Made by a program: the position numbers and the translations under genes. The notes under the pieces were generated by a model that did no database searches, was not told where the DNA came from, and saw only the letters and a program-made list of their open reading frames with translations. A DNA stretch of 64,000 nucleotides, from positions 1,113,701 to 1,177,700 of the forward strand of contig NZ_LMFP01000003.1 of NCBI RefSeq assembly GCF_001426885.1. The letters run 5' to 3'. Shown here in pieces: positions 25,214 to 50,577 of the stretch (position 1 is its first letter; each line of letters starts with the position of its first letter). Origin of the DNA: Pelomonas sp. Root1444. Lineage in GTDB: Bacteria; Pseudomonadota; Gammaproteobacteria; Burkholderiales; Burkholderiaceae_C.

Positions 25214-25356
25214 CGCGGGCCGAGCGCCGGGCCGTCCCAAGCCGGCCCGCCTTGGGCGATGTGCATGCGGCTCAATGCCGCATGCATCGCCGTCCCCTCG
25301 GGGGACCGGCTGGGCTCGTCCGCGTTCAGCGGAGCGAGCCCGGACGAGGGGCTTCA
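25214..25356 (+). repeat. Dispersed hairpin-rich 3'-end element, copy A
   Basis: About 143 bp. Head CGCGGGCCGAGCGCC, a long hairpin (GCATGCGGC-TCAAT-GCCGCATGC inside GGCGATG/ATCGCC), a short hairpin GTCCCC-TCG-GGGGAC, a third hairpin with loop GTTCA between CCGC and GCGG, and tail GGACGAGGGGCTTCA. The tail's TCA is the stop codon (read on the minus strand) of the rhamnogalacturonan lyase gene. It fills the gap between that gene and the convergent thioesterase. Related copies lie at 41536, 47351 and 50437. Confidence 0.85.
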
Positions 25357-27192
25357 GGGCGTGACGATCAGGTCGACCGCGTCATAGGACAGGCCCGGGC
25401 TGAGGAAGCCCGTGCCCGACGTGCCGCTGACGACGTTGAGGGTCACCGTGTTGGTGCCGGCCACGAGCGCGGTCGACGGGATGTCGAAGCTGTAGAGCCG
25501 GTTGACGCCGCGGTAGGTGCCGACCGTCAGGTTGCGCGAGCCCTTGGGCGGCGCGGTCGGGATGGCCGAGGTCCAGCTGTTGTTGTTGACGCTGACCTGG
25601 GGGCGGGCGCTGTTGAAGTCGGTCGTCGTGCCGACGCGCAGCGTCAGGTTGCGCACCTGGGCGCTGGTCAGGTTGAACTGGATGACGCGCGCGTTGTTGA
25701 CGTCCTTCCACTGGTAGGCCGGGAAGCCGCTGGCGGCGCTCGACGAACCGACCACGAAGGTGGCCGGCACCCAGCTGCTCATGCGCACGTCCGACGGGTG
25801 CATGGTCGTCAGCCGACCGCCGTTCAGGAACTCGTTGGGCAGGCCGTCCCAGTTGCCGATGCGCCAGATCGCCGCGGTGCTGGACGGGTCGGCATTGATC
25901 GTCAGCGTGTTGAGCGTCGTCGTGTTGCCGGCCGTGACCGTCACGCTGCCGGTGTAGACCGCCAGCTCGTTCTTGTAGACCGTGACGGTGTAGTTGCCGG
26001 GCCGCATGCCGGTGCTCTTGAAGAAGCCGTTGTTGGCCAGGTTGGCGGTGGTCCAGTACTGCGCCTTGTCGCTGGAGAAGCCCACCGTGTAGGTGTAGGC
26101 GGAATCCGTCCCCGACAGGCCCACGCCCGCCACGGTGCCGCGGCCCGACGGCGCGACGAAGCCGTCCAGCCCCATCACCGAGAACCAGCTGGTGTCGGGC
26201 GCGGTCGGCGCGGCGCCACCGGTGAACATCAGCGTGTAGCTGTTGAGCACGCCCATGCGGAAGGCCTCGGTCTGGCCTTCGCCGTAGTTGACGATGTAGG
26301 TGAGCTCGTTGTTGGTGGAGGTGATCTGGTTGAGCAGGCTGCGATAGAACGGCCCGCCGGAGTTGCCTTCGTTGTTGTCCCGGTAGAACCACAGGCCCAC
26401 CGTGCTGCCGCTGTTCAGGCCGCCGAAGTACTGCCAGTCCTTCAACCGCATGTTGGAGTAATGCTTGGAGCGCGTCTGACCGGCGTTGGACGTGCCGCTG
26501 GAGAAACCGAACACGTCGCTGGCCTCAATGGTGCTGTTCGTGCCACGCAGGTCCTGTGGCCAGGTGCCGTTGCTGGCCAGGCCACCGGGCACGCCAGCCG
26601 CGGGCCCGCGGGACAGCACGCCGATCGGCACGCGCACGATGTAGCGCACCAGGTTCAGCGTGTCGGGCTCCTCGGTGAAGTAGGTGCCCATGTAGACGCG
26701 CGGCTCGCCGCTCCTGGCCATGTAGTAGTGCTTGAGCACACCGCCATTGGCGCTGAAGACGGTGACCGTGACCTTGATGTACGCGCCGCCGCTGACGACG
26801 CCGCCGTTGGCGGTGGAGGCCGGCGTGGCCGCCCCGGTGCTGCTGATCATCTGGGCCTGCACGTCGACGGCCGAGACGTTGCTGTAGAGGAAGTCAAAGC
26901 CCGAGTTCAGCTGCGAGCCGCGGCTGGCATCGGCGTATTGGGCGCCGTTGTAGACCAGGCTGGAGATGTCGCCCTTGGACTGGGTGCTCACCCCGTTGTC
27001 GTAGGCCATCACCTTGAACACCAGGCCGCCGCCGGTGTCTACCTGGTACTGCACCTTGGCGGCGTTGCCGCCGTCGTGCAGCGTCGTCAGGCTGAATGCC
27101 GCCATGGCCGGGGATGCCATGCCTGCCAGCCCGGTTGCGAGCGCGAGTGCGCCCAGCCGGCGCAGGCGCCGGCAAAGTCTGTCGATCCACAT
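25354..27192 (-). CDS. Secreted rhamnogalacturonan lyase, polysaccharide lyase family 4 type
   Basis: 612 residues. A Sec signal (LGALALATGLAGMASPAMA) leads into three domains typical of PL4: an N-terminal beta-supersandwich (about 30-330, with VLKHYYMARSGEPRVYMGTYFTEEP, TRSKHYSNMRLKDWQ and GPFYRSLLNQ), a short fibronectin-III-like module (SWFSVMGLDGFVAPSGRGTVAG to VTAGNTTTLNTL) and a C-terminal jelly-roll carbohydrate-binding domain ending YDAVDLIV. Cleaves the rhamnose-galacturonate backbone of pectin by beta-elimination. AAGGAG lies seven bases before the ATG at 27192. No other pectin genes are adjacent. Its stop codon lies within repeat copy A. Confidence 0.88.
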   Translation of the reverse strand: MWIDRLCRRLRRLGALALATGLAGMASPAMAAFSLTTLHDGGNAAKVQYQVDTGGGLVFKVMAYDNGVSTQSKGDISSLVYNGAQYADASRGSQLNSGFDFLYSNVSAVDVQAQMISSTGAATPASTANGGVVSGGAYIKVTVTVFSANGGVLKHYYMARSGEPRVYMGTYFTEEPDTLNLVRYIVRVPIGVLSRGPAAGVPGGLASNGTWPQDLRGTNSTIEASDVFGFSSGTSNAGQTRSKHYSNMRLKDWQYFGGLNSGSTVGLWFYRDNNEGNSGGPFYRSLLNQITSTNNELTYIVNYGEGQTEAFRMGVLNSYTLMFTGGAAPTAPDTSWFSVMGLDGFVAPSGRGTVAGVGLSGTDSAYTYTVGFSSDKAQYWTTANLANNGFFKSTGMRPGNYTVTVYKNELAVYTGSVTVTAGNTTTLNTLTINADPSSTAAIWRIGNWDGLPNEFLNGGRLTTMHPSDVRMSSWVPATFVVGSSSAASGFPAYQWKDVNNARVIQFNLTSAQVRNLTLRVGTTTDFNSARPQVSVNNNSWTSAIPTAPPKGSRNLTVGTYRGVNRLYSFDIPSTALVAGTNTVTLNVVSGTSGTGFLSPGLSYDAVDLIVTP

Positions 27193-27504
27193 TGCTTGTC
27201 TCCTTAGGGATCCGACCGTCATTACGGCTCGTGCGGCCGGTGTTGCCACGTGATTGCGGCGCGGCCAGTCTAGGAGTGCAGGCTGCGGGCGCAGCGCTCA
27301 AGATCGTGAGTGAATCGGCCGCGGGAAGACCCCGCTGGCGCCGTTGCCGGCATTGCGCCAGCGGTACCGGCGCGGGTCATTTCGTTGTAACGGCGTCAGT
27401 GGTGTCCGACTCCATGCACCTGTGCCGTCCGGCATGTCTGGCACGGGCGCGTCGGTAGGCTTCAACTGTCCGCCATTCAGGCATCAACCCGTGAGGAGTT
27501 CGCC
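27193..27504. other. Gene-free intergenic region (312 bp)
   Basis: Lies between the divergent lyase gene and the DUF1328 gene, so it must hold both promoters. I see no RNA gene, terminator or strong palindrome in it, and no open frame with a ribosome-binding site. Confidence 0.5.
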
Positions 27505-27666
27505 ATGCTGCGTTACGCCATCATCTTCTTTGTCATCGCCCTGATCGCGGCCGTGTTCGGCTTCACGGGCATTGCGGCCAGTGCGGCCGGTTTTGCCCAG
27601 ATCCTGTTCTACGGCTTCCTGATCCTGGCCGTCATCGGCCTGGTGGTCGGCCTGATCCGGAGATAG
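27505..27666 (+). CDS. DUF1328 (UPF0391) small membrane protein
   Basis: 53 residues: MLRYAIIFFVIALIAAVFGF and a second hydrophobic stretch, ending GLVVGLIRR. This is the classic UPF0391 two-helix membrane protein, often stress-induced, function unknown. GAGGAG lies nine bases before the ATG. Stands alone between the lyase promoter and the beta-oxidation operon's 3' end. Confidence 0.92.
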   Translation: MLRYAIIFFVIALIAAVFGFTGIAASAAGFAQILFYGFLILAVIGLVVGLIRR

Positions 27667-27686
27667 CGCCCACCCGCCTCACGCGC

Positions 27687-28451
27687 TCAATCGAACTTGG
27701 AAAAGTCCGGAGCGCGTTTCTGGAAGAACGCCTGGAAGGCCTCCATGGCTTCCGGGCTGCGCAGGCGGGCGCCGAAGATCTCGGCCTCCCGCGTGATGGC
27801 CGCCTTGACGGCGTCACGCTGAGGGTCGCGGATCAGGCGCTTGCTGTCGCGCACCGCGCCGGGCGCCAGGTTGTTGAAGCGCTCGGCAATGCGCCGGGCA
27901 TGGTTGACGACCTCGCTGCCCGGCAACACCCGGTTGGCGATACCGCATTCGACGGCCTGCTCCCCGGTGAAGGGGTCGCCCAACAACAGCTTCTCGGCCG
28001 CACGCCGGTTGCCGATCAACTGCGGCAGCACCACGCTGGAGGCGAACTCGGGCACCAGGCCCAGCGCCACGAAGGGCATCGCGAGGCGCGCATCGTCGGC
28101 CACGAACACCAGGTCGCAATGCAGCAGCATCGTCGTGCCGATGCCGATGGCCGCACCGGTCACGGCGGCGACGACGGGCTTGCCGCAATCCACCAATGCA
28201 TGCATGAACTGGAAGGTCGGCGCGTCTTCGCCACGCGTCGGGCCGGCCATGAAGTCCTCGAGGTCGTTGCCCGACGTGAAGATGCCGGGCTGGCCGGTGA
28301 TCAACACCGCACGCACCGCCTTGTCGGCATCGGCAGCGCGCAGCGCGTCGGCCATGGCCTGGTACATGGCCTGCGTGATCGCGTTCTTCTTCTCGGGGCG
28401 GGCGATCTCGAGGGTCGCGACGCCGTTGACGGTGTAGCTCTTGATGGTCAT
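27687..28451 (-). CDS. Enoyl-CoA hydratase/isomerase family protein
   Basis: 254 residues of the crotonase fold. Oxyanion-hole segments are ARPEKKNAIT and ITGQPGIFTSGNDLEDF, followed by the AAVTGAAIGIGTTMLLHCDLVFVADDARLAMPF core. The acidic residue pair of classic hydratases is partly replaced, so isomerase activity is possible. Last gene of the minus-strand beta-oxidation operon that starts with the acyl-CoA dehydrogenase. Confidence 0.9.
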   Translation of the reverse strand: MTIKSYTVNGVATLEIARPEKKNAITQAMYQAMADALRAADADKAVRAVLITGQPGIFTSGNDLEDFMAGPTRGEDAPTFQFMHALVDCGKPVVAAVTGAAIGIGTTMLLHCDLVFVADDARLAMPFVALGLVPEFASSVVLPQLIGNRRAAEKLLLGDPFTGEQAVECGIANRVLPGSEVVNHARRIAERFNNLAPGAVRDSKRLIRDPQRDAVKAAITREAEIFGARLRSPEAMEAFQAFFQKRAPDFSKFD

Positions 28452-28462
28452 TGTGCGGTCCT

Positions 28463-28996
28463 TCAGGCGGTAGCGGTCCTGGCGTGGAATTGCGTCCAGT
28501 GATTGCCCAGGTGCATCAGGTGGGCTCGCTCGTACTGCGGCTTGGTCAGCTCGCCGTAGGCGAAATGAGGCCGCAGCGTACCGTTGAACTGGGCGAATGC
28601 GTCCATCGCGTCCAGCAGCCGCTGTACCGAGGTCTTGAGGGCCTGTGACGCATCCAGCGCCGGCGCGCCGGGAATGGGCTCGGCGAGGTCGTGGCTCATC
28701 GTGCCCCGTGCATTGAAGACCGCGAACGCCGCCGAGCCGACCGAGGATCGGAACCAAGCCCCCTTGAGCGCCGGATAGCCCTGCATCGAGTACTCGATGC
28801 TTTGGGCCAGGTGCTGCATCACCTGGCTGAGGTTCCAGGCGTTGCCCTGAACGACCTTGGGTGCGAACAACAGGTCCAGCACGGCCTGCTGGGCCTGCTT
28901 CCAGTTGGAGAAGGTCTTGAGCTTGCCGGTGCAGGCGGCAAGCGGCGTCGCCGCGAGCAGTACCGTGGTGGTCTTGAGGGCGCGGCGACGGTCCAT
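28463..28996 (-). CDS. DUF1569-type (DinB-like) lipoprotein
   Basis: 177 residues. N-terminus MDRRRALKTTTVLLAATPLAAC carries an Arg-rich start and lipobox LAAC, so it is exported and possibly lipidated. The rest is four-helix-bundle-like with KLKTFSNWKQAQQAVLDLL near the start and AHLMHLGNHWTQFHARTA near the end, as in DUF1569/DinB-superfamily proteins. Role inside a beta-oxidation operon is unclear. Sits 3 bp after the thiolase stop. Confidence 0.75.
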   Translation of the reverse strand: MDRRRALKTTTVLLAATPLAACTGKLKTFSNWKQAQQAVLDLLFAPKVVQGNAWNLSQVMQHLAQSIEYSMQGYPALKGAWFRSSVGSAAFAVFNARGTMSHDLAEPIPGAPALDASQALKTSVQRLLDAMDAFAQFNGTLRPHFAYGELTKPQYERAHLMHLGNHWTQFHARTATA

Positions 28997-28999
28997 GGC

Positions 29000-30214
29000 T
29001 TACAGCCTTTCGAAGATGCCGGCTGCGCCTTGCCCGGCGCCGACGCACATCGTCACCATGCCGTACTTGCCGCCGGTGCGGCGCAGGCCGTGGATGACCG
29101 AGGCCGCGCGGATGGCGCCGGTGGCGCCCAGCGGGTGGCCCAGCGCGATGGCGCCGCCGTTGGGGTTGACCTTGGCGCGATCCAGCACGATGCCCTTGCT
29201 GTCGAGGTCGTTCAGCACGGCCAGCGACTGCGCGGCGAAGGCTTCGTTCAGCTCGATCCAGTCCAGGTCCGCGGCGGTGATGCCGGCGGCCTTCAGCGCC
29301 GCCGGGATGGCCTCGATGGGGCCGATGCCCATGATCTCCGGCGGCACGCCGCGCACGGCGAACGACACGAAGCGGGCCAGCGGCGTCAGGTTGAAGCGCT
29401 TGAGTGCCGCTTCGCTGACGATCAGCAGGCCGCCCGAGCCGTCGGAGGTCTGCGAGCTGTTGCCGGCGGTCACGCTGCCCTTGGCGGCGAACACGGGCTT
29501 GAGCTTGGCCAGGCCTTCCAGCGACGTGTCAGGGCGCGCGCCTTCGTCGAGCTTGACGGTGCGGGTCTTCACGTTGACGGTGCCGTCGGTCAGGTTGGGT
29601 GTGCGCTCGACGACATCGAACGGCGTCATCTCAGCGTCGAAGTGACCGGCCTGCATGGCGGCCACCGCGCGGCGGTGCGATTCCACCGAGAACGCGTCCT
29701 GCGCTTCGCGGCTGATCTTCCACTGCGCGGCCACCTTCTCGGCCGTCAGGCCCATGCCGTAGGCGATGCCGATGTTCTCGTCGCGCTCGAAGATCAGCGG
29801 CGACAGGCTGGGCTTGTTGCCGCCCATCGGGATCATGGACATCGACTCGACACCGCCGGCGAACATCACATCGGCCTCGCCGACGCGGATGCGGTCCGCG
29901 GCCATCTGCACGGCGGTGATGCCGGAGGCGCAGTAGCGGTTGATCGTCACGCCGCCGATGGTGGGGCCCAGGCCCGCCAGCACCGAGGCCACGCGGGCGA
30001 TGTTCATGCCCTGCTCGCCTTCGGGGAAGGAGCAGCCGACGATGGCGTCTTCGATGGCGGCCGGGTCCAGGCCCGGGGCTTGCGCCAGCACGGCCTGCAT
30101 GACCTTGACGAGCATCTCGTCGGGGCGGGTGTTCTTGAAGTAGCCACGGCCGCTCTTGCCGATGGGCAGACGGGTGGCGGAGACGATGTAGGCGTCTTGG
30201 ACTTGCTTGCTCAT
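29000..30214 (-). CDS. fadA: Acetyl-CoA acyltransferase (3-ketoacyl-CoA thiolase), FadA type
   Basis: 404 residues. Active-site Cys in NRYCASGITAVQ (about residue 94), the GHP histidine in ALGHPLGATGA and the second cysteine in MCVGAGQGAAG are present. Performs the final thiolytic step of beta-oxidation, releasing acetyl-CoA. Co-directional with a FadN-type dehydrogenase/hydratase and an acyl-CoA dehydrogenase, the same trio as Bacillus subtilis fadNAE. Confidence 0.95.
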   Translation of the reverse strand: MSKQVQDAYIVSATRLPIGKSGRGYFKNTRPDEMLVKVMQAVLAQAPGLDPAAIEDAIVGCSFPEGEQGMNIARVASVLAGLGPTIGGVTINRYCASGITAVQMAADRIRVGEADVMFAGGVESMSMIPMGGNKPSLSPLIFERDENIGIAYGMGLTAEKVAAQWKISREAQDAFSVESHRRAVAAMQAGHFDAEMTPFDVVERTPNLTDGTVNVKTRTVKLDEGARPDTSLEGLAKLKPVFAAKGSVTAGNSSQTSDGSGGLLIVSEAALKRFNLTPLARFVSFAVRGVPPEIMGIGPIEAIPAALKAAGITAADLDWIELNEAFAAQSLAVLNDLDSKGIVLDRAKVNPNGGAIALGHPLGATGAIRAASVIHGLRRTGGKYGMVTMCVGAGQGAAGIFERL

Positions 30215-30234
30215 GGTGTTTCCTTGGTCAGTTG

Positions 30235-30274
30235 GGGACAGAGCTACGCGCGGGTACGCGCTTCGGTCTGTCCC
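30235..30274. repeat. REP-like palindrome across the DUF4442 stop codon
   Basis: Perfect 8-bp inverted repeat GGGACAGA / TCTGTCCC around a 24-nt loop that contains TACGCGC twice. The loop includes the stop codon of the DUF4442 gene, and the element reaches to 20 bp before the thiolase start. The GTCTGTCCC arm resembles palindromes I associate with RAYT-type transposases in other proteobacteria (memory, not searched). Confidence 0.45.
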
Positions 30275-30774
30275 GCAAGGTCTTGGGATTGGGGCTTCTC
30301 TTTGGGCACCCAGGCCCAGACAAATTCACACTCGATCGGCTCGATGCCGGCTTCATCGGTCACGGTCACGGCGACGCGCACTTCACCCTTGGTCTCGCTC
30401 GCCATGCTGGCGCGCTGGGCGTCCGTCAGATGCGCCTTGGCGGTGAGTCCGCCCGTGGCACGCTTGCGGAAGTTCACCTGCAGCGACTTGCACAGCGGCA
30501 GGCAGTCGTCGCGCACGTTCATGCCCACCACCATGCCGGTCGCCGTCTCGGCCAGCAGCGACATCGCGGCCGCATGCACGCCCTTGATGTGGTTCTGCAC
30601 CGGGCGCTTGTTGGCGACGCGGATCTCGCTGTGCTCGGGGGTGAGCGCAACGAAGTCCAGCGACGCCGTGCCCGTGAAAGGCACCGCGCGGCGCAGCGCA
30701 AAGTTGCGCGCAGGCCCACGCAGCGGGGACGGCAGGCCGTCCAGCTTGGCGAGCGTGCGTTGAAGCCGGTTCAC
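30244..30774 (-). CDS. DUF4442 hotdog-fold (thioesterase-like) protein
   Basis: 176 residues of the DUF4442/PaaI-like hotdog fold: ARNFALRRAVPFTGTASLDFVALTPEHSEIRV, then NHIKGVHAAAMSLLAETATGMVVGM, the helix that bears the catalytic site in thioesterases. Probably releases CoA from blocked or excess acyl-CoAs made by the operon. Between the FadN-like gene (8 bp) and the thiolase. The last 15 residues are encoded by a palindromic repeat and may be an extension. Confidence 0.8.
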   Translation of the reverse strand: MNRLQRTLAKLDGLPSPLRGPARNFALRRAVPFTGTASLDFVALTPEHSEIRVANKRPVQNHIKGVHAAAMSLLAETATGMVVGMNVRDDCLPLCKSLQVNFRKRATGGLTAKAHLTDAQRASMASETKGEVRVAVTVTDEAGIEPIECEFVWAWVPKEKPQSQDLAGQTEARTRA

Positions 30775-30782
30775 GTCGGACC

Positions 30783-33182
30783 TTAGTTGCGGACGGGCTT
30801 GCCGGTCTGCAGCATGCCCATGATGCGTTCCTGCGTCTTGGGGTTGTCCAGCAGCGAGCAGAAGTGCTTGCGCTCCAGCGCCATCAGGTACTCCTCCGTC
30901 ACCAGGGAGCCGGCCTCGACCTCGCCCCCGCAGACCACGTCGGCGATGGCAGCGGCCAGGTGGTAGTCGTGCGCGCTGACGAAGCCGCCGTCGCGCATGT
31001 TGGCGACCTGGCCCTTGATCGTCGCGATGCCGCTGCGGCCGGCGACCGGGAACAGCGCCTTGTGCGGCGCGCGGTAGCCGGCCTCGGCCATGCCCAGCGC
31101 GGTGGCCGTGGCCACGTGCAGCAGTTCGTCCTTGTGCGGCACGATGATGTCGGACTCCAGCAGGAAGCCGTTCTTCCTGGCCTCATGCGCCGACGTCGCG
31201 ACCTTGGCCGTGGCCGCGGTCAGGAAGCCGTCCTTCAGGAAGGTCAGGATGTCGGCACCGGCATTGCCGGCTGCGGCCATCTCGGCGGCGCGGCGGGCGA
31301 TGTAGGTCAGGCCGCCGCCGCCGGGGATCAGGCCCACGCCGACTTCGACCAGGCCCACGTAGCTCTCGACATGCGCAACGCGGCGCGCGCAGTGCACGGC
31401 CAGCTCGGCGCCGCCACCCAGCGCCAGGCCGCGCATGGCGGCGACGACCGGCACCGACGCATAGCGCAGGCGCAGCATCATGTCCTGCAGCTTCTTCTCT
31501 TCCGGCGCGATGCCCTTGCTGCCCATCTTCATGAAGACGGGCATCAGGCTTTCCAGGTTGGCGCCGGCGGAGAACACGTCGTCCGGGCTCCAGATCACCA
31601 GGCCCTTGTACTGGCTTTCAGCGATCTCGACGGCCTTCAGCAGGCCCTCGGTGACGGCGGGGCTGATCAGGTGCAGCTTGGCGGTGATGGAGGCGATGAC
31701 GACGTTGCCGTCCCGCGTCCAGACGCGCACTTCGTCGTTCTTGAACAGCTCGGTGCCGCTCTTCAGCGGGTCGGCCGCGCCGGTGCCCAGCAGCGATTCG
31801 CGGAAGGCCTGGCGCTCGTACACCGGCAGCTCGCTGCGCGGCTTGAACTTGCCCTCCGCGGCGCTCCACGAGCCCTGCGGCGTGTGCACGCCACCAGCCT
31901 CGGCGACCGGGCCTTCCGTGACCCATGCCGGCAGCGGCGCGCTGGACAGCGTCTTGCCGTCGGCGATGTCGGCGGCAATCCACTCGGCCACCTGCTTCCA
32001 GCCGGCGGCCTGCCACAGCTCGAACGGGCCTTGTTGCGAGCCGAAGCCCCAGCGCATCGCGAAGTCGATCTCGCGCGCGGTGTCGGCCACGGTGTCCAGG
32101 TGCACGGCGGCGTAGTGGAAGCTGTCGCGCAGGATGGCCCACAGGAACTGCGCCTGCGGGTTGCTCGATTCACGCAGCAGCTTCAGGCGGTCGGCCGGCT
32201 GCTTCTTGAGCATGCGGGCGACGATCTCGTCGGCCTTCTTGCCGCCGGCGACGTACTCGCCCGTGGCGAAGTCCAGGCGCTGGATGTCCTTGCCGACCTT
32301 CTTGTAGAAGCCGGCACCGGTCTTCTGGCCGAGCGCCCCTTTCTGGATCAACTCACCCAGCACCTTGGGCGTGGCATAGGTGCTGTAGAACGGGTCGTCC
32401 TTCAGGTTGTCCTGCATCGTCTTGACGACGTGGGCCATGGTGTCCAGGCCCACGACATCCGCGGTGCGGAAGGTGCCGCTCGACGCACGGCCCAGCTTCT
32501 TGCCTGTCAGGTCGTCGACGACGTCCACCGACAGGCCGAACTTCTCGGCCTCGATCATCGTGGCCATCATGCCGGCGATGCCGACGCGGTTGGCGACGAA
32601 GTTGGGCGTGTCGTGGGCGCGCACGACGCTCTTGCCCAGCGACGTGGTGACGAAGGCCTCGAGCTGGTCGAGGATTTCCGGCTGCGTGGTCGGCGTGTTG
32701 ATCAGCTCGACCAGCGCCATGTAGCGCGGCGGGTTGAAGAAGTGGATGCCGCAGAAGCGCGGCTTGATTTCTTCGGGCAGAACTTCCGACAACTTGGTGA
32801 TCGACAGGCCCGACGTATTCGACGCGACGATGGCGTGCGGCGCGACGAACGGCGCGATCTTGGTGTACAGGTCCAGCTTCCAGTCCATGCGCTCGGCGAT
32901 GGCCTCGATGATGAGGTCGCAGCCCTTGAGGACTTCGAGGTGCTCTTCGTAGTTGGCCTGCTGGATCAGCGCCGCCTCAGCGGCGTCACCCAGCGGCGCG
33001 GGCTTGAGCTTCTTCAGGCCGTCGACGGCCTTGGTGACGATGCCGTTCTTGGCGCCTTCCTTGGCGGGCAGGTCGAACAGCACGACCGGCACCTTGCAGT
33101 TGACGAGGTGGGCCGCGATCTGCGCGCCCATCACGCCGGCGCCGAGCACGGCGACCTTGCGGACTTGGAACTTGGAACTCAT
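30783..33182 (-). CDS. fadN: 3-hydroxyacyl-CoA dehydrogenase / enoyl-CoA hydratase, FadN type
   Basis: 799 residues. The NAD-binding dehydrogenase domain is N-terminal (AVLGAGVMGAQIAAHLVN at residues 10-27; ASNTSGLSITKLSEVLP; FCGIHFFNPPRYM), followed by two C-terminal 3HCDH domains, and a crotonase domain at about 500-720 (SPDDVFSAGANLES, AAMRGLALGGGAELAVHC). This order, dehydrogenase first, is that of B. subtilis FadN (about 790 aa) and opposite to E. coli FadB. Carries out hydration and oxidation of enoyl-CoA. Confidence 0.95.
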   Translation of the reverse strand: MSSKFQVRKVAVLGAGVMGAQIAAHLVNCKVPVVLFDLPAKEGAKNGIVTKAVDGLKKLKPAPLGDAAEAALIQQANYEEHLEVLKGCDLIIEAIAERMDWKLDLYTKIAPFVAPHAIVASNTSGLSITKLSEVLPEEIKPRFCGIHFFNPPRYMALVELINTPTTQPEILDQLEAFVTTSLGKSVVRAHDTPNFVANRVGIAGMMATMIEAEKFGLSVDVVDDLTGKKLGRASSGTFRTADVVGLDTMAHVVKTMQDNLKDDPFYSTYATPKVLGELIQKGALGQKTGAGFYKKVGKDIQRLDFATGEYVAGGKKADEIVARMLKKQPADRLKLLRESSNPQAQFLWAILRDSFHYAAVHLDTVADTAREIDFAMRWGFGSQQGPFELWQAAGWKQVAEWIAADIADGKTLSSAPLPAWVTEGPVAEAGGVHTPQGSWSAAEGKFKPRSELPVYERQAFRESLLGTGAADPLKSGTELFKNDEVRVWTRDGNVVIASITAKLHLISPAVTEGLLKAVEIAESQYKGLVIWSPDDVFSAGANLESLMPVFMKMGSKGIAPEEKKLQDMMLRLRYASVPVVAAMRGLALGGGAELAVHCARRVAHVESYVGLVEVGVGLIPGGGGLTYIARRAAEMAAAGNAGADILTFLKDGFLTAATAKVATSAHEARKNGFLLESDIIVPHKDELLHVATATALGMAEAGYRAPHKALFPVAGRSGIATIKGQVANMRDGGFVSAHDYHLAAAIADVVCGGEVEAGSLVTEEYLMALERKHFCSLLDNPKTQERIMGMLQTGKPVRN

Positions 33183-33213
33183 GGGGTCTCCTGTTTGAAG
33201 CGGGGACCGCGGC

Positions 33214-34074: not shown

Positions 34075-34080
34075 GCTGCG

Positions 34081-34506: not shown

Positions 34507-34516
34507 CGGGGCATCC

Positions 34517-36307: not shown

Positions 36308-36342
36308 CGGGTACTCCTGGAACGGTCTGTGTAGTGATGGGG

Positions 36343-38434: not shown

Positions 38435-38449
38435 CGGTTCGCCGCGGCG

Positions 38450-41472: not shown

Positions 41473-41492
41473 GGATCTCATCCTCTCCAACG

Positions 41493-41515
41493 AAAAAGCC
41501 CGGCCGGAGCCGGGC
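41493..41515 (-). terminator. Intrinsic terminator or attenuator before the GNAT gene
   Basis: On the minus strand: perfect 7-bp stem GCCCGGC-TCCG-GCCGGGC followed by TTTTT. It lies 150 bp after the acyl-CoA-reductase-like gene and ends only five bases before the GNAT ribosome-binding site (41488-41482), leaving no room for a promoter between hairpin and gene. Confidence 0.8.
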
Positions 41516-41535
41516 CCAGTGCGAAGCGCCGAGTT

Positions 41536-41671
41536 CCGGGCCAAGCGCCGGGCCGCCCCAAGCCGTCCCGACTGGCGGCGCCCAGTGGGCAGCGTGTGCC
41601 TGCCGAAGCGCGGTCTGCAAGACCGACCGGGCACGCCCGCGTTCAGCGCGGCGAGCCTGGACGAAGGGTCA
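41536..41671 (+). repeat. Dispersed hairpin-rich 3'-end element, copy B (diverged)
   Basis: Head TTCCGGGCCAAGCGCCGGGCC and the segment CGCGTTCAGCGCGGCGAGCC plus tail GGACGAAGGGTCA match copies A and C; the centre is diverged but still holds hairpins (GGTCT-GCA-AGACC). The tail's TCA is the stop codon, on the minus strand, of the acyl-CoA-reductase-like gene. The intrinsic terminator at 41493-41515 follows 20 bp beyond its head. Confidence 0.75.
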
Positions 41672-43663: not shown

Positions 43664-43860
43664 GCGAGGTCTCCTGCTTGTTGGAAGGGGGTGAGCGCGC
43701 CGATTCTTCCCCAGTGCCTGGGGTGGCCCGCTGCGCACTTTCCCCAGTGAAGGCCACCGCCGGCGTAGAGCGCCCACACTAGGAATGGACGCGCCGATGC
43801 AGGATGCGAGGGCTACAGTCCCGCCGGTCAATACATTGCGCTCACTCGAAAGGACACCCC

Positions 43861-44556
43861 ATGGTCAAGAAGCTCCAGAAGATGGCTGACAAGAAGAAGG
43901 CTGCGGCCGCCACCGGCTTCCCCGCTGGCCTGCTCGACAGCGCGATGGCACAGAACGTCAAGGACAGCGCCCAGCAGATCTGGGCCGCCGGCCTCGCCTC
44001 CTTCGCCAAGGCCCAGGGCGAAGGCTCCAAGGTCTTCGAGGCCCTGGTCTCCGAAGGACAGAAATTGCAGAAGAAGACCCAATCCGCCGCTGAAGAGAAG
44101 CTCAGCGCCGCCGCCAGCAAGCTCAGCGGCGTGGCCGGTGATGTCGGCGCCAAGGCCGGCCAGCACTGGGACAAGCTCGAGTCCATCTTCGAGCAGCGCG
44201 TCGCCAAGGCCTTGAAGGCGCTGAACGTGCCGTCCGCCAGCGATGTCGACAGCCTGATCAAGCGCATCGACGCGCTGGCCGTGTCGGCCGGCCTGAAGAA
44301 GGCTGCACCCGTGAAGGCCGCCCGCAAGACCGTCGCCAGGAAGGCCACCGCGGCCAAGACGGCCGTGGCTGCCAAGGTCGCGCCGGCCAAGAAGGCGGCG
44401 GCCAAGAAGGCTGCGCCCGTGAAGGCCGCCGTCAAGGCCGTGGCCAAGAAGGCCGCTGCGCCGGCCAAGGCACCGGCTGCAAAGAAGGCCGCGCCGGCCA
44501 AGCGCGCCCCGGCCAAGAAGGCGGCTCCGGCCGCCGACACGGCAGCGCAGGCCTGA
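43861..44556 (+). CDS. Phasin (PhaF-like) with lysine/alanine-rich tail
   Basis: 231 residues. N-terminal phasin domain (about 1-145; SAMAQNVKDSAQQIWAAGLASFAKAQGEGSKVFEALVSEG), an amphipathic helix that coats polyhydroxyalkanoate granules, and a C-terminal tail of Lys/Ala/Pro repeats (KKAAPVKAA and variants, about 147-225) like histone H1, which in PhaF binds DNA and helps granule segregation. Start ATG at 43861. The next gene on the strand is a patatin lipase 22 bp downstream. Confidence 0.9.
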   Translation: MVKKLQKMADKKKAAAATGFPAGLLDSAMAQNVKDSAQQIWAAGLASFAKAQGEGSKVFEALVSEGQKLQKKTQSAAEEKLSAAASKLSGVAGDVGAKAGQHWDKLESIFEQRVAKALKALNVPSASDVDSLIKRIDALAVSAGLKKAAPVKAARKTVARKATAAKTAVAAKVAPAKKAAAKKAAPVKAAVKAVAKKAAAPAKAPAAKKAAPAKRAPAKKAAPAADTAAQA

Positions 44557-44578
44557 GCACCGTTAGCTCTTCCTGACC

Positions 44579-45829
44579 ATGCGCCAGCCCAGGATTGGCC
44601 TGGCCCTGGCAGGCGGAGGCCCACTGGGCGCCATCTATGAAGTTGGCGCCCTTTGTGCTTTGGAGGAGGCCGTCGACGGCCTGGACTTCACCGCCTGCGA
44701 CGGCTACATCGGCGTCAGCGCAGGCGGCTTCATCGCCGCCGGCCTGGCCAACGGCATGACGCCGCGCCAGCTCTGCGCCGCCTTCATCGAGAACACCGCC
44801 GGGGCGCCCGACCGCTTCGACCCCGCCGAACTGCTGCAGCCCGCCTGGGCCGAGTTCGGCGAGCGCCTGCGCCTGCTGCCGCGGCTGCTGGGCGACGCGG
44901 CGCGCGAGGTGCTGCTGGAAGGCCGCTCCGCACTCGGCGCCATCGAGCGCCTGGGCCGCGTGCTGCCCACCGGCCTGCTGTCCAGCAACCGCTTCGCCGA
45001 GGCGCTGACCCGCGTCTTCGCGCGGCCCGGCCGCACCGACGACTTCCGCCAGCTGCGCCACCGCCTGGTGCTGGTCGCCACCGACCTCGACAGCGGCGAG
45101 GCCATCCCCTTCGGCACCGAGGGCTGGGACCATGTGCCCATCTCGCAGGCCGTGCAGGCCAGCGCCGCGCTGCCGGGGCTGTTCCCGCCGGTGGAGATCG
45201 GCGGCCGGCACTACGTGGACGGCGCGCTGAAGAAGACGCTGCATGCCTCCGTGCTGCTGGACCGCGGGCTGGACCTGCTGATCTGTCTGAACCCGCTGGT
45301 GCCCTACGAAAGCGACCGCCTGTCCAACCGCGAGGCGCGCTCGCGCCGCGCGAAGAAGCTGGCCAGCAAGCTCGGCCGCCCGGCCGTGCGCGCGCTGCAG
45401 CCGCGCATCCACCGGCTGGTGGACGGCGGCCTGCCGCTGGTGCTGTCGCAGACCTTCCGCTCGCTGATCCATTCGCGGCTGGAACTGGGCCTGCGCGGCT
45501 ACGAACTCAGCCATCCCGAGACCGACATCCTGCTGTTCGAGCCCGACCCGCGCGACGCCGAACTGTTCCTGGCCAACACCTTCAGCTACAGCCAGCGCCG
45601 CCACCTCGCCGAGCACGCCTACCAGGCCACGCGCGAGCTGCTGCGCGAGCGCGCCGCGACGCTCCAGGCCCAGTTCGCCCGCGCCGGCCTCACGTTGCGC
45701 GAGGATGTGCTGGCCGATCGCGAAGCACGCCTGCTGCCCGCACCGGGCGAGACCCGCATCGAGCAGGCGTTGCGCTCGCTGCGCGGCAGCCTCGCCGTTC
45801 TGGAGGCTCGCGGCGCGCAGCACCCCTAG
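44579..45829 (+). CDS. Patatin-like phospholipase family protein
   Basis: 416 residues. Oxyanion loop LAGGGPLGAIYEVG (12-17), nucleophile elbow GVSAGG (Ser47) and catalytic Asp in the YVDGALKKT segment complete the Ser-Asp dyad. A cytoplasmic lipid acyl hydrolase. Following a phasin gene by 22 bp, it might act on granule lipids or granule polymer (inference), although characterised PHA depolymerases belong to other families. Confidence 0.9.
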   Translation: MRQPRIGLALAGGGPLGAIYEVGALCALEEAVDGLDFTACDGYIGVSAGGFIAAGLANGMTPRQLCAAFIENTAGAPDRFDPAELLQPAWAEFGERLRLLPRLLGDAAREVLLEGRSALGAIERLGRVLPTGLLSSNRFAEALTRVFARPGRTDDFRQLRHRLVLVATDLDSGEAIPFGTEGWDHVPISQAVQASAALPGLFPPVEIGGRHYVDGALKKTLHASVLLDRGLDLLICLNPLVPYESDRLSNREARSRRAKKLASKLGRPAVRALQPRIHRLVDGGLPLVLSQTFRSLIHSRLELGLRGYELSHPETDILLFEPDPRDAELFLANTFSYSQRRHLAEHAYQATRELLRERAATLQAQFARAGLTLREDVLADREARLLPAPGETRIEQALRSLRGSLAVLEARGAQHP

Positions 45830-45946
45830 AAGGCGCACCGTTCCTCAACCGAGCGGATGCCTCGGGCAGAGGCGGCGCCCACACTGACTGCGCCGTCGCA
45901 TGGCATCGGGCCGGCGATGGCGTTGTCACTTCCTGGGAGCAGCACC

Positions 45947-47353
45947 ATGCCCATCGAATCCATCTCCGACCCTTCGCTCACCGGCCGCGCGCTGACCGAG
46001 CCGCCCCAGGGCGCCGCCGCGCCCGGCTGTGCCATCAATCCGTACGCCCTGGCGGAAGTCGTGTCCGGCAAACGCATCGACTGGAAGCAGGTTGCCAACA
46101 AGCCGGCCCTGCTCGAGCAAGTGCTGGGCATGCCCTACGAGGAGCTGTTCGACCCGAAGTTCGGCGGGCCGCTCTACATCGGCGGCGCGCGCCAGCCCGA
46201 CGGCAGCATGCGGGCGCAGCGCTCGACGCTGCTGGACATCGAGATGCCCAGCGGCCCCAACGACGCGGAGCGTCCGCCCATGGCGGAGCTGGGCGGGCTG
46301 ACCAGCCTGAAAGACATCGCCCGCACGCTGAACATCAACTCGCTGGACGACCTGACCGTCGGCTGCATCGACTGGAGCCGTGCCACCAAGCTGCGCCTCA
46401 CCTTCGACCTGCCGCGGGCCGTCAGCGACCTGCGCATGGCGCGCCACTACACGCCCGACCTCGTGCGCACCGTCAGCCACGACCCCGCGCTGCAACTCGG
46501 CAACAACCAGGACTGGACGCCGCCCAATGCCAGCTGGCAGGACGGCGGCCGCTTCTTCGACGAGACCGCCGAGTTCTACGACCCCGTGCAGGGCGCCGTG
46601 GCCAACTGCTACTTCATCGCCGCGCTGTCGGCCATCGCCTGGGCCCAGCCCTACCGCATCGCCCAGCACACGCGGGCCACGGGCGCCAGCCAGAGCCAGT
46701 TCTTCGACCGCGTGACTTTCTACAAGCCCGACAACCAGGGCATCGACCGCGAGATCGAGGTCAGCGAGACTGTGCCCAAGACGGCCGGCGGCAACTTCAT
46801 CTACGCACGCTCCAGCGAAAGCGGCGAGGCCTGGCCCGCCATCTACGAGAAGGCCTTCGCCAAGCTCGAGACCGGCACGACGACCGACCACCCCGACATC
46901 ACCGCCACCGGCTGGGGCGACTGCGTCTGGGCCACGGCCCAGCTCACCGGCGGCAGCCGCGCCTACCACGACACCGCCTCGCGCTCGGCCGACCAGCTCT
47001 GGCACACGCTGCGCAGCCACTGCCTGAGCTACCGCACCATCCGGCCGATGACGGCCTGGACCTACGGCTCCGGCGCCGATGCGCCCGACCCGGTGGACTA
47101 CAGCTCCGCGCAGGTGGTGGGTTCGCACTGCTACACGGTGCTGGGCTGGGCCTACCGCAACTGCAAGCGCTACATCCTGCTGCGCAACCCCTGGGGCAAC
47201 ACCGAGGCGACGGTGAACGCGCTGGATGCCACGGTCTACGCCCACGACGTGAGCTGGTGGCGCCCGATCGCGCTGAAGGAGGTCGACGGCACCTTCGCGA
47301 TGGAGATCGGCACGTTCAAGCGGTACTTCGCTGGCTTCGGCGTGGTGAGCTGA
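45947..47353 (+). CDS. Calpain-like cysteine protease (family C2)
   Basis: 468 residues. The calpain catalytic core is recognisable: VQGAVANCYFIAALSAIAW (Cys221), VVGSHCYTVLGW (His394) and LLRNPWGNTE (Asn414), spaced as in eukaryotic and bacterial C2 proteases. The N-terminal 200 residues are a separate domain of unknown fold; no EF-hand or C2-like domain and no signal peptide are seen. The start at 45947 has GGGAG seven bases upstream, better than ATG at 45857. The stop TGA is part of repeat copy D. Bacterial calpains are sporadic. Confidence 0.85.
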   Translation: MPIESISDPSLTGRALTEPPQGAAAPGCAINPYALAEVVSGKRIDWKQVANKPALLEQVLGMPYEELFDPKFGGPLYIGGARQPDGSMRAQRSTLLDIEMPSGPNDAERPPMAELGGLTSLKDIARTLNINSLDDLTVGCIDWSRATKLRLTFDLPRAVSDLRMARHYTPDLVRTVSHDPALQLGNNQDWTPPNASWQDGGRFFDETAEFYDPVQGAVANCYFIAALSAIAWAQPYRIAQHTRATGASQSQFFDRVTFYKPDNQGIDREIEVSETVPKTAGGNFIYARSSESGEAWPAIYEKAFAKLETGTTTDHPDITATGWGDCVWATAQLTGGSRAYHDTASRSADQLWHTLRSHCLSYRTIRPMTAWTYGSGADAPDPVDYSSAQVVGSHCYTVLGWAYRNCKRYILLRNPWGNTEATVNALDATVYAHDVSWWRPIALKEVDGTFAMEIGTFKRYFAGFGVVS

Positions 47354-47392
47354 AGCCCCTCGCCCGGCCCTCCGCGGGCGCTCGGCCCGCGG
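47351..47392 (-). repeat. Dispersed 3'-end element, copy D (internally deleted)
   Basis: On the minus strand: head CCGCGGGCCGAGCGC, a 15-nt remnant, and tail CGAGGGGCTTCA; the hairpin centre is missing. The tail's TGA (read on plus) is the stop codon of the calpain-like gene. It fills the whole gap to the convergent UbiH-family gene. Confidence 0.7.
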
Positions 47393-47393
47393 C

Positions 47394-48545
47394 TCAGACA
47401 GCGTCCACCAGCCTGCGCGTGATCGCCGCCCGCAGCGGCGGCAGGTGCCGTGCCACGTCGATGACGGCGCGGCGCAGCGCCAGCATCGGCGCGCGGTCGT
47501 CGGTGAAGAAGCGCACCAGCGCATTCGTACCGGCATAGAGCGGCCCGGCAGCGCGGCGATGCTCGGCCTCGTAGGCCTGCAGCGGCCCGGGCTCGCCGGG
47601 GTCGCGGCCGGGGCCCAGGCGTCGCGCCAGCGCGTCGATGCCGTACAGGCCCAGGTTGTAGCCATGCGCCGTCACCGGGTGCATGCCGACGGCCGCGTCG
47701 CCGATCAAGGCAAAGCGCGGCGCGACGAAGCGCTCGGCCCAGACGGCCACCAGCGGATAGACATGCCGCTGGCCGACGACGTGCATCGCGCCCAGCTTGC
47801 CGTCGGCGGCCGCCTCGATGGCCGCAGCCAGCGCCGCATCGTCCAGCGCCGCGATGCGCGGCAGCTCGGCGTTCGCCACCGTCCACACGGCCGAGCAGCG
47901 CCGCCCCGTCATCGGCAGCAGCGCCAGCGTGTGGCCTTCGAGGAAACACTCCTGCGCCAGGCCCTCGTGCTCGGCCTCGTGGGCCAGCGGCACCAGCAGC
48001 GCGCTGCGGCCGAAGTCCTGGTGGCGCGCCGCAATGCCGGCCAGCCGGCGCAGCGCCGAGAAGCGGCTGTCGGCCGCCACGACCAGCGGCGCCGCATGCA
48101 GCTCACCGCAGGCGGTACGCACACGCGCCTGCAAGGCGTCGCGCTCCAGGCCGACGACGCTGTGGCCGCACAGCACGTCGATGCCGCGCTCGCGCGCACC
48201 CGCCCAGGCCGCCGCGCGGATGCGGTGGTTGGGCACCAGCCAGCCGAGGTCCTGCCCCGCCGACTCGAAAGGCAAGACCTGGCGCGAGCCGCTGGAGCGC
48301 ACGCTGGCGCGCCGCAGCGGCGCGATGTCGGCGAGGCGCTGCCACAGGCCCAGGCCTTCGAGCAGGCGGCGCGAGCGGTGCGTCAGCGCGATCTCGCGGC
48401 CGTCATCCGCGGGCTCGGCGAGCTGGGCCTCGCCGGCCTGCTCCAGCACCTGCACGGCCAGGCCACGGTCGTGCAGCGCGCAGGCGAGCGCCAGGCCGGC
48501 GGGGCCGGCGCCGCAGATCAGCACCTGGGGAAAAGTGGGATTCAT
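47394..48545 (-). CDS. UbiH/UbiF-family FAD-dependent hydroxylase
   Basis: 383 residues. FAD-binding motif VLICGAGPAGLALACALHDRGL at the start, the DG motif (VVAADSRFSALRR variant) and GDAAVGMHPVTAHGYNLGLYGIDALARRL, the ubiquinone-hydroxylase signature. Probably a ring hydroxylase of ubiquinone biosynthesis (UbiM-like members occur in betaproteobacteria), though this cannot be fixed from sequence. The start at 48545 (MNPTFPQVLICGAGPAG) places the Rossmann fold correctly. Confidence 0.88.
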   Translation of the reverse strand: MNPTFPQVLICGAGPAGLALACALHDRGLAVQVLEQAGEAQLAEPADDGREIALTHRSRRLLEGLGLWQRLADIAPLRRASVRSSGSRQVLPFESAGQDLGWLVPNHRIRAAAWAGARERGIDVLCGHSVVGLERDALQARVRTACGELHAAPLVVAADSRFSALRRLAGIAARHQDFGRSALLVPLAHEAEHEGLAQECFLEGHTLALLPMTGRRCSAVWTVANAELPRIAALDDAALAAAIEAAADGKLGAMHVVGQRHVYPLVAVWAERFVAPRFALIGDAAVGMHPVTAHGYNLGLYGIDALARRLGPGRDPGEPGPLQAYEAEHRRAAGPLYAGTNALVRFFTDDRAPMLALRRAVIDVARHLPPLRAAITRRLVDAV

Positions 48546-48615
48546 GAAGAAGACGGACGAGCCCGGGACAACGCTGCAGCCTAGGCGCCATCGCACCGCC
48601 CCGTCTTGACCCAGG

Positions 48616-50391
48616 TCAGGTCGCCTCGGAATCCGGCTCGGCTTCTTCCAGCGTCTGCAGCTCGACCAGGCGCCGGTACAGGCCGCCGTCCAGGCCCATC
48701 AGCGCCTCGTGCGTGCCGCGCTCCTGCAGGCGACCGTGGTTCAGCACCAGGATCTGGTCGGCCGCGCGGATGGTGGACAGGCGGTGCGCAATGGCGATGA
48801 CGGTCACGCGGCCGCGCAGCGCCGTCAGCGCCTCGCCGACGCGCTGCTCGGTGGCGCTGTCGATGTTGCTGGTGGCCTCGTCGAGGAACAGGATGCGCGG
48901 CGCACCGGCCAGCGCGCGCGCCATCGCGATCAGCTGCTTCTGCCCGGTGGACACGCGCGCGCCGCCTTCGCCCAGCCGGGTGTCGTAGCCCTGCGGCAGC
49001 GCGGTGATGAAGTCGTGCGCGCGGGCGGCCTGCGCCGCGGCCTGAACGGCGGCCTCGGTGATGCCGGGCCGGCCCATCGCGATGTTCTCGCGCACGCTGG
49101 CCGCCATCAGGTACGGCTCCTGCGGCACCAGGCCCACGGCGTCGCGGAAGGCCGCGTCGGGCACGGCTGCCAGCGGTTGCCCATCGACGGTGATGCGGCC
49201 TTGTTGGGCCGTGTAGAAGCGCAGCAGCAACGACAGCAGCGTGCTCTTGCCGCTGCCGGTGTGGCCCACGATGCCGACGAAGCTGCCGGCGGCGATGTCC
49301 ACGTCAATGCCATGCAGCACCGGGCGCGCCGGGTCGTAGCCGAAGGTCAGCCCCTCGATGCGGATGGCGCCCTGCGTGACCGGCGCGCCGTCCTGCGGCG
49401 GCCCGCGGAACTCGTCCTCCTCCAGCAGCGCCCGCACGCGCGACGCCGCCACCATGGACTGCTGCAGCTGGCCGAACTGCATGGTGATCTGGATCAGCGG
49501 CTCCACCACACGGGCGATGTAGGCCAGGAAGGCGTACAGCAGCCCCACCTCCAGCCCCGACAGCTCGCGCCGGCCGAAGCCGTAGATGACGGTGACCAGC
49601 AGCAGCACGTTGAGCAGGTCCAGCGCCGGGCGCAGCAGCCAGGCGTTGGCGCGCAGCTCGGCGATGCGAGAGAGGCGGTGCTCGGCGTTCACCGCCTCGA
49701 AGCGCTCGCCGAAACGCCCCGCCGCGCCCGCCGCCTGCAGCACCGCCATGCCGGCCATGCTCTCGGCCATCTGCGCGTTGATGTCACTGCGCAGCTGGCG
49801 CGTGCGCGCCACGGCCGGGGCGGACAGGCGCTGGTAGGTCTTGATGATGACCACCATGGCCGGCACCAGCGTCGCGACGATGAGCATCAGCCGCCAGTCA
49901 AGCCAGGCCATCGCGACCAGCGAGCCGACGACGACGATGGTCGAGTCCAGCATCACATACAGCACCTGCCGGTACAGCTGGTTGACGGCCTCGGTGTCGT
50001 TGGTGACGCGGCTGACCAGCTGGCCGGTGATGGCCTTGTCGAAGAAGGCCATCGGCAGCGCCAGCACATGGGCGTAGACCCGCTCGCGCAGCCGCAGTAC
50101 CGAGCGCCGCGCCACGCCGGCCATGCGCGACAGCTGGGCGTAGCGGATCCAGCTCGACGCCCAGCCCGTCAGCAGCACGGTGGCGAGCAGCGCGCCCATC
50201 GCGCCGAGGTCGTAGTGGCCGGGCAGCAAGTAGTCGTCGATGTAGCGCTTGCCGAGGATGGGGGCGATGGCTTCGAGGCCGGCGGCCAGCAGCAGCCACA
50301 GGCCGCCGCGGACGAGCTGCGGGCGCTCCGGCCGCGCCGAGTCCATCAGCAGGCCGACGCTCTGCCACGGCTTCTCTAGGGTCCTTGCCAT
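48616..50391 (-). CDS. ABC exporter half-transporter, MdlB/SmdB-like
   Basis: 591 residues: six-helix exporter domain (about 25-325; YDLGAMGALLATVLLTGW, FFDKAITGQLVSRVTNDTEAVNQLY) and ATPase with Walker A GHTGSGKST, signature VSTGQKQL (instead of LSGGQ), Walker B ILFLDEATS. The degenerate signature and the partner ABC gene directly upstream fit a heterodimeric exporter such as SmdAB/MdlAB. Start at 50391 follows the family length. Confidence 0.92.
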   Translation of the reverse strand: MARTLEKPWQSVGLLMDSARPERPQLVRGGLWLLLAAGLEAIAPILGKRYIDDYLLPGHYDLGAMGALLATVLLTGWASSWIRYAQLSRMAGVARRSVLRLRERVYAHVLALPMAFFDKAITGQLVSRVTNDTEAVNQLYRQVLYVMLDSTIVVVGSLVAMAWLDWRLMLIVATLVPAMVVIIKTYQRLSAPAVARTRQLRSDINAQMAESMAGMAVLQAAGAAGRFGERFEAVNAEHRLSRIAELRANAWLLRPALDLLNVLLLVTVIYGFGRRELSGLEVGLLYAFLAYIARVVEPLIQITMQFGQLQQSMVAASRVRALLEEDEFRGPPQDGAPVTQGAIRIEGLTFGYDPARPVLHGIDVDIAAGSFVGIVGHTGSGKSTLLSLLLRFYTAQQGRITVDGQPLAAVPDAAFRDAVGLVPQEPYLMAASVRENIAMGRPGITEAAVQAAAQAARAHDFITALPQGYDTRLGEGGARVSTGQKQLIAMARALAGAPRILFLDEATSNIDSATEQRVGEALTALRGRVTVIAIAHRLSTIRAADQILVLNHGRLQERGTHEALMGLDGGLYRRLVELQTLEEAEPDSEAT

Positions 50392-50436
50392 CTCAGCTGT
50401 CCATTCCACACTCGCGACGCATGAAGCTGCAGCATT

Positions 50437-50577
50437 CCGGGCCGAGCGCTGGGCCGCTCCCGAGCCGGCCCGCACCGGCGATGGGCTCGCGGCTCGATGC
50501 CGCGAGCATCGCCGTCCCCTCGGGGGACCGGTCAGACGCACCGCGTTCAGCGGCGTGCGGCTGGACGAGGGGCTTCA
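50437..50577 (+). repeat. Dispersed hairpin-rich 3'-end element, copy C
   Basis: Head TTCCGGGCCGAGCGCTGGGCC, long hairpin GCTCGCGGC-TCGAT-GCCGCGAGC within GGCGATG/ATCGCC, short hairpin GTCCCC-TCG-GGGGAC, third hairpin around loop GTTCA, tail GGACGAGGGGCTTCA. Relative to copy A the long stem differs at two positions per arm, and both changes are compensated in the opposite arm. It separates the two ABC half-transporter genes and starts 2 nt after the stop of the upstream one. Confidence 0.85.

Follow-up and report, generated by a model that had tools for sequence, protein, structure and literature searches.

What is the structured repeat that stands four times at gene ends in a 64,000-nucleotide stretch of DNA from Pelomonas sp. 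Root1444 (contig NZ_LMFP01000003.1, positions 1,113,701 to 1,177,700; hereafter the window), and how could it persist there? The explanation that best accommodates the data, held here at a probability of roughly 0.7, is that the repeat would be a small, non-autonomous mobile element, resembling the MIRUs of mycobacteria, whose niche is the joint between two genes. At the level of sequence, the family itself, its bias in position, the covariation of its hairpins, the existence of filled and empty sites, the conservation of phase between flanking genes and the presence of mini-open reading frames (mini-ORFs) coupled to those genes are all in evidence.

A repeat family at gene ends

Sequences and coordinates agree with a preliminary description of the window in placing four copies, termed A, B, C and D, each 3' of a gene and in identical orientation relative to that gene. 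In gene sense, the core of the long form reads TGA followed directly by AGCCCCTCG...GGCCCG. The TGA abutting the core is the gene's own stop at copies A, B and D; at copy C, the gene's stop is a separate TGA slightly upstream of the core. The copies, together with their surroundings, are as follows:

25216-25353, minus strand: copy A, long form, between two convergent genes; the core follows the stop TGA at 25354-25356
25354-27105, minus strand: gene 5' of copy A, with rhamnogalacturonan lyase (PL4) domains to residue 627 of 631
41493-41518, minus strand: ancestral intrinsic-terminator-like hairpin and T run downstream of copy B, present in element-free relatives
41538-41668, minus strand: copy B, long form with a variant middle
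47351-47392, plus strand: copy D, internally deleted, between two convergent stop codons
48616-50391, minus strand: ABC transporter gene downstream of copy C
50389-50436, minus strand: 3' tail module of copy C, which closes with TGA-G-ATG at the next gene's start
50393-50578, minus strand: mini-ORF of copy C, 61 codons, with its GTG 1 nt past the upstream stop and its TGA 1 nt before the downstream ATG
50439-50574, minus strand: copy C, long form, between two ABC transporter genes
50580-52316, minus strand: ABC transporter gene upstream of copy C

Genes were called with a codon-usage gene finder made for this analysis, the starts being rough. As the PL4 domains reach almost to the last residue, the end of the gene upstream of copy A looks native.

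A BLAST search of the same genome with copy A as query returned 178 first-look candidates. Of these, 40 were scored and all 40 matched, such that the repeats in the window are not a product of chance. A hidden Markov model run over C3:1-1200000, i.e., the scanned 1.2-Mb portion of a contig (C3) of this genome, yielded 22 full or partial hits, which include split pieces of single copies and one copy of a short form considered below. This corresponds to about 20 family copies in 1.2 Mb and, by extrapolation, to roughly a hundred copies per 5.9-Mb genome.

The bias toward stop codons and the orientation seen in the window hold across the family. Among 78 full long-form copies at fetched loci, a set that includes at least five repeats of one site, 68 begin between -2 and +11 nt after a same-strand stop. 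The same is true of 14 of the 15 hits on C3 that matched from model position 6 or earlier, with C3:497012 being the exception. On this contig, a random intergenic position and orientation would lie 0 to 11 nt past a same-strand stop with a chance of 0.025. The next gene is on the strand of the element in 58 of the 78 full copies and on the opposite strand in 20, and convergent sites account for 19 of the 82 long copies that follow a same-strand stop. In 63 copies located after a same-strand stop, the median distance from that stop is 3 nt, and the median distance to the following gene is 32 nt. At the exceptional site (G000:C3:497012-497763), two hits flank a gene for the small signal recognition particle (SRP) RNA, and the full hit has its head toward a start codon, not a stop.

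Two forms with covarying hairpins

The long form comprises, in gene sense, the AGCCCCTCG head, hairpin 1 (with a CTGAAC-type loop), hairpin 2 (short, GTCCCC/GGGGAC), hairpin 3 (long, GGCGATG...CATCGCC), hairpin 4 (a 35-nt palindrome) and, in some copies only, a tail that ends CACTGA or similar directly before a start codon. Since all 12 tail hits (two sites being counted twice) adjoin hairpin 4, the tail belongs to the element. The composite body measures 75-190 bp, the long form reaching about 190 bp. The short form is without hairpin 3 and lies in the opposite orientation relative to genes; it occurs at many loci of related genera and once in the 1.2 Mb of C3, at C3:279831-279907.

The compensated differences between the hairpins of copies A and C, which had been pointed out from the window alone, extend to the family at large. 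In 87 distinct long-form copies, 95.1% of the cells are paired and 23 of 48 pairs have changes on both sides. Double-change cells number 188, as compared to 43.2 +/- 5.3 in shuffles and no more than 39 when the pairing was slid. This covariation sits in hairpins 1 (11 of 13 pairs) and 3 (9 of 15 pairs). In hairpin 4, it is the sequence itself that is conserved, the mean majority frequency being 0.979 in the 61 long-form rows not picked by exact match. The hairpin of the short form covaries as well: the 46 of 71 copies that are of modal length show 34 double changes, where shuffles average 5.8 and reach 13 at most. An alternative head stem, CCCCTCG/CGAGGGG, was rejected, as no pair with two-sided changes was found in the long form or in the 46 short copies.

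At four loci (L200, L227, L214 and L298), a long chain of hairpins (GGTCTTGCAGACCGCGC...GGCCTCAGCCCC and similar) stands in place of hairpin 2, in a modular swap. Copy B may be a shortened relative of such variants.

Distribution

In a covariance-model survey, with at most 55 candidates scored per genome, the element was found in all 20 same-genus genomes (that of Root1444 included) and in four out of 16 further genera within the family (weakly in two), while none of 24 genomes of other families matched. An exact 35-nt search of GTDB contigs matched at least 115 stretches. Among the 80 of these listed, the named genera are Roseateles, Pelomonas, Piscinibacter, Aquabacterium, Rhizobacter, Methylibium, Ideonella, Paucibacter, Sphaerotilus, Rubrivivax and Aquincola, all assigned to the Burkholderiales; this assignment was confirmed by look-up for Roseateles and Methylibium and is presumed for the others.

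No match to the element was detected in phages and plasmids by blastn or in viral contigs with an exact 33-nt pattern. Within the window, nothing matched Rfam at gathering score, copy A giving only low-scoring matches far below that level, and across 18 loci SRP RNA was the sole Rfam match, away from the element. No description of this family in Burkholderiales was found in the literature, although the coverage lacked most subscription journals, such that absence from print is not shown.

Filled and empty junctions

Comparison of orthologous junctions (genomes being given by G numbers and loci by L numbers) revealed the element to be present at a given site in some species and missing from their sisters. 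Site C is filled in Root1444, G007, G011, G003 and G002 and empty in nine other genomes, where the two genes overlap or nearly do so; G018 carries a different filler, and G016 and G019 are unreadable there. In a tree of three flanking genes, every filled genome has an element-free neighbour (Root1444-G001, G007-G014, G011-G015, G003-G006 and G002-G012). Root1444, G007 and G011 have one version of hairpin 1 in common, from which those of G002 and G003 differ, pointing to independent insertion events or to replacement at a single junction. The version common to these three non-sister genomes could stem from one old insertion followed by losses, or from transfer.

Site B is filled in Root1444, G007 and G009 among 13 genomes compared, with the insert lying between the stop and the ancestral terminator, which persists downstream. 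Among six close orthologues at site A, Root1444 and G002 are filled and G012, G016, G009 and G005 are empty. The junction before the ferrochelatase gene (hemH), considered in 19 genomes, is filled in Root1444, G009 and G007, with a remnant in G011. Because junctions filled in some species are empty in sisters, the element moves or turns over, in agreement with the earlier view of it as mobile or maintained. The same comparison speaks against the proposal that the element supplies stop codons: in element-free relatives, the native stop is at the identical codon at sites A, B and C, and the element is thus not the stop supplier. A role in termination, likewise suggested in the preliminary description, is unlikely given that the hairpin-plus-T terminator is still present downstream of copy B.

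The short form offers a further case, at a junction between genes with Pfam Glyco_tran_28_C and Mur ligase domains, which we take to be murG and murC. In 13 of the 16 same-genus genomes shown, the site is empty and the genes overlap by GTGA or ATGA. G007 and G002 have a short element there, flanked by NTGA on both sides, whose mini-ORF shares ATGA with the following gene in G007 and ends TGA-C-ATG in G002. The junction is empty in the respective sisters, G014 and G012. The Piscinibacter copy (L224) at this junction has no coupled frame. In G009 (L332), this junction holds a different long inverted repeat (GCCACGGAGGCACAGAGG...), followed by sequence resembling the long-form tail.

The short form at stop/start overlaps

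The short form sits in NTGA stop/start overlaps, filling the space between the gene 1 stop and the gene 2 start. That of Root1444 reads MNILMTTTSRRAERRAAPSRPAIPSGDRSAYSTNEGQT followed by a stop that overlaps the next ATG. Short-form loci were picked by an exact 35-nt match, and hairpin 4 is thus conserved in them by construction. Both neighbours were called for 68 short copies, and 33 of these passed a filter requiring the two genes to be co-oriented, the gene 2 start to lie within 15 nt and the gene 1 stop within 60 nt. Among 72 short copies, the 39 that fell outside it include convergent, tandem and non-coupled copies and copies with a misassigned start.

In 29 of the 33 filtered copies, a mini-ORF starts between the gene 1 stop and hairpin 4 and ends coupled to gene 2. 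Among these 29, 24 start at -4 (NTGA), and at gene 2, 28 end as NTGA and one as TGA-N-ATG. Gene 1 ends NTGA in 27 of the 33 copies, and gene 2 starts NTGA in 30, as compared to 397 of 956 C3 genes (p = 1e-8). Despite linkers of anywhere between 1 and 41 nt in front of hairpin 4, 28 of the 33 copies keep the same phase from the gene 1 stop to the gene 2 start (p = 1.5e-9). No such bias marks ordinary gaps on C3 in the 20-300 nt range, whose three phases occur 136, 126 and 103 times. A Shine-Dalgarno-like motif in the end of gene 1 precedes the start of the short mini-ORF in 10 of 27 cases; the corresponding counts are 106 of 685 for ordinary gene ends and 42 of 96 for ordinary NTGA overlaps. 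At four of the 80 listed loci, two exact hairpin-4 matches are 90 bp apart, a multiple of three, and in L183 and L219 the frame crosses both tandem units.

Mini-ORFs in the long form

An ORF running from at or just after the gene 1 stop through hairpin 4 was found in 50 of 63 co-oriented long copies. Coupling was considered in the 49 operon copies whose gene 2 is no more than 70 nt away. Here, 40 of 49 frames that have a start in the interval from -4 to the head are open, versus 49 of 98 for other frames (p = 0.0003). When NTGA, TGATG-type and TGA-N-ATG arrangements are counted as coupled, 19 of the 40 open start-anchored frames stop at the gene 2 start, versus 6 of 49 other open frames (p = 0.0003); of the 19, 12 do so at -4, six at +1 and one at -1. 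Support for coupled ORFs is weaker in long operon copies than in the short form.

Across hairpin 4, the 50 through ORFs use the three frames 28, 12 and 8 times, two being unassigned. When five mini-ORF peptides were compared to Pfam and NCBIfam, no family was found, save for a Pfam kinesin line at E 0.18. Given the use of all three frames and the lack of third-position excess in the short form, the open path, and not the peptide, appears to be what is kept in the mini-ORFs. A peptide function was rejected on these grounds.

A proposed niche at the joint between two genes

In the favoured explanation, the element would abut a stop codon at one end, and its other end would, in operons, lie at the start codon that follows. 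Insertion into an NTGA stop/start overlap would leave NTGA or TGA-N-ATG on both sides, an arrangement with which both neighbouring genes stay intact, and insertions would survive where the neighbours do so, namely past a stop or in a stop/start overlap. With the body of the element being stop-free in a suitable frame, ribosomes ending gene 1 would start on the mini-ORF, cross the element and restart on gene 2. Transposition would be carried out by an enzyme acting in trans. Since hairpin 4 is retained whichever way it faces relative to transcription, the hairpins probably serve mobility, as DNA.

The element had initially been described as a 3'-untranslated region (UTR) module. That it adjoins gene 3' ends stands; operon copies, however, also reach near the start of the next gene, often with a coupled mini-ORF, and the joint between two genes is the better frame. 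There is an even chance that the family represents a class of mobile DNA living on translational coupling, inserting at stop/start junctions, repeating the junction, remaining stop-free in the needed frame and being accommodated in either orientation, and, jointly with this, that MIRUs in mycobacteria and the elements in Burkholderiales are independent inventions of the same trick. The favoured explanation would show how a repeat can spread through tightly packed operons without breaking them, and would open translational coupling to testing as a habitat of mobile DNA. Where a junction is filled in one species but not in its sister, nature has provided an experiment on how an intercistronic insert alters the expression of gene 2. 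An account would also be at hand for an abundant repeat of Roseateles and relatives for which neither an Rfam family nor, in the literature covered, a description was found.

Several observations weigh against this explanation. No transposase for the element was found. Among long operon copies, 13 of 63 are without a through ORF, and such an ORF is present, with no need of it, in 8 of 19 convergent copies. NTGA is present at 341 of 781 gene ends, such that a start at -4 is by itself weak evidence, and no Shine-Dalgarno signal was detected ahead of mini-ORFs in the long form (4 of 38 and 2 of 25). In the short form, four of the 33 filtered copies are without a coupled mini-ORF, and NTGA is not retained in many of the copies that the filter excluded. 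With 98 of 99 short-form frames open, openness there is no proof, and the absence of third-position excess gives no sign of peptide constraint. No significant target duplication was detected for the long form (p = 0.17, 0.26 and 0.13); the corresponding value for the short form is p = 0.0024, in a set including tandem copies. Finally, the copies are related by descent, which renders the p-values given here optimistic.

Alternative explanations

The element might instead be a selfish palindromic repeat that inserts 3' of TGA-like targets and plays no role in translation, with the mini-ORFs arising as a side effect of high GC content and of the purifying selection under which the neighbouring genes stand. 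The existence of convergent copies fits such a repeat, as does the fact that many frames are open by chance. Conservation of phase in 28 of the 33 short copies despite their varied linkers does not, nor does the enrichment of coupled stops in start-anchored long-form frames, and this alternative is considered unlikely. The stops themselves point both ways: TGA is used at 56 of 63 copies, as compared to 762 of 956 genes genome-wide (p = 0.10), while TAG is used at six of the 63. Insertion into a pure TGA target was rejected, as the stop types are not clearly different from those of the genome and TAG stops occur.

A functional RNA element of the 3' UTR, stabilising, processing or terminating the mRNA of the upstream gene, would account for the shared orientation relative to the adjoining stops, the strong covariation and the predicted folding, which is deep in copy A (z -4.55) and weaker in copy C (z -2.12). 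Such an RNA is nonetheless rather improbable, given the persistence of the ancestral terminator at copy B, the opposite orientation relative to genes of the most conserved hairpin in the short form, and the differing occupancy of sister species. Nor does the sense strand present an excess of G-U pairs: in hairpins 1 and 3, G-U pairs number 44 and A-C mismatches 75, and there is thus no sign of selection on the sense RNA. Hairpin 4 contains two nearly fixed T-G pairs on the gene-sense strand. Wobble pairing in a sense RNA was rejected on the basis of the 44 to 75 count. Identity with a Rho-independent terminator was likewise rejected, since no T run directly follows hairpin 4 in 18 right flanks and a separate terminator follows copy B.

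Least probable is a REP/BIME family mobilised by a RAYT (Y1 transposase): the repeat is palindromic, extragenic and, by extrapolation, present in about a hundred copies, and the genome of Root1444 has three Y1_Tnp matches, but none of 12 Y1_Tnp loci has the element nearby (best E 3.5), Y1_Tnp is present in 49 of 60 relatives, 26 of which are without an element hit, G030 has three weak element hits yet no Y1_Tnp match, and the body is a composite of 75-190 bp. With none of the 12 loci flanked by the element, the link to RAYT found no support. A weak Y1 transposase-like match (21.4 bits, below cut-off) lies at 19558-19797 of the window, overlapping the predicted gene at 19033-19767; similar matches occur in several same-genus genomes.

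Relation to known repeats

MIRUs use DTGA target sites and, to our knowledge, lack dyad symmetry. In the portion of the source consulted, they are described as small, seemingly mobile repeats that insert at start codons and contain an ORF coupled to the next gene at -4 nt (PMC12548453); elsewhere, again in an excerpt, they are given as scattered units of 40-100 bp, variable in copy number at some loci (PMC2734929). The short form resembles them in lying between co-oriented genes at stop/start overlaps (33 of 68 copies after filtering), in containing a presumably translated ORF that is coupled to the next gene at -4 nt (28 of the 33) and in forming tandem copies (four of the 80 listed loci). 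The differences are that the present elements belong to Betaproteobacteria, whereas MIRUs belong to mycobacteria, that both forms have covarying hairpins, that the two forms are oppositely oriented and the long one is larger, and that the elements are also found between convergent genes and use all three frames. The elements would work like MIRUs, to which they are likened here by their features. On the best reading, the lineage, structure and two orientations are new, and the kind of element is MIRU-like.

Other repeats share only parts with the element. Rickettsia palindromic elements (RPEs) are palindromic, can be read as protein and lie inside genes; the elements considered here are likewise palindromic and able to be read as protein but form separate mini-cistrons located between genes. 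ERIC, YPAL, Correia and other small palindromic MITE-like repeats are similarly structured, mostly intergenic and without an internal transposase gene. In the sections consulted, effects of ERIC at gene 3' ends are reported and RPEs are named (PMC10969869), and ERIC-type units are described as having TA ends and TA duplications (PMC2759123). The ends of the present elements do not look like the TA ends and duplications of those sections, in which a tie to stop/start overlaps is not mentioned for ERIC-type repeats. REP sequences with RAYT, GTAG- and CGTC-tagged, are palindromic dispersed repeats according to the part of the source available (PMC3733652). The element is likewise a palindromic dispersed repeat but differs in that it flanks no Y1 transposase gene at the 12 Y1_Tnp loci.

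Other features of the window

Positions 1-327 of the window contain a CRISPR-like array of approximately 37-nt repeats (GCACCGCCCGCCTTCACCGGCGGGCGTGGGTTGAAAC) with a 71-bp period. The predicted gene at 43861-44556 includes a repetitive stretch with periods of 15, 33 and 108, and its product is one that we take to be Lys/Ala-rich and histone H1-type-like.

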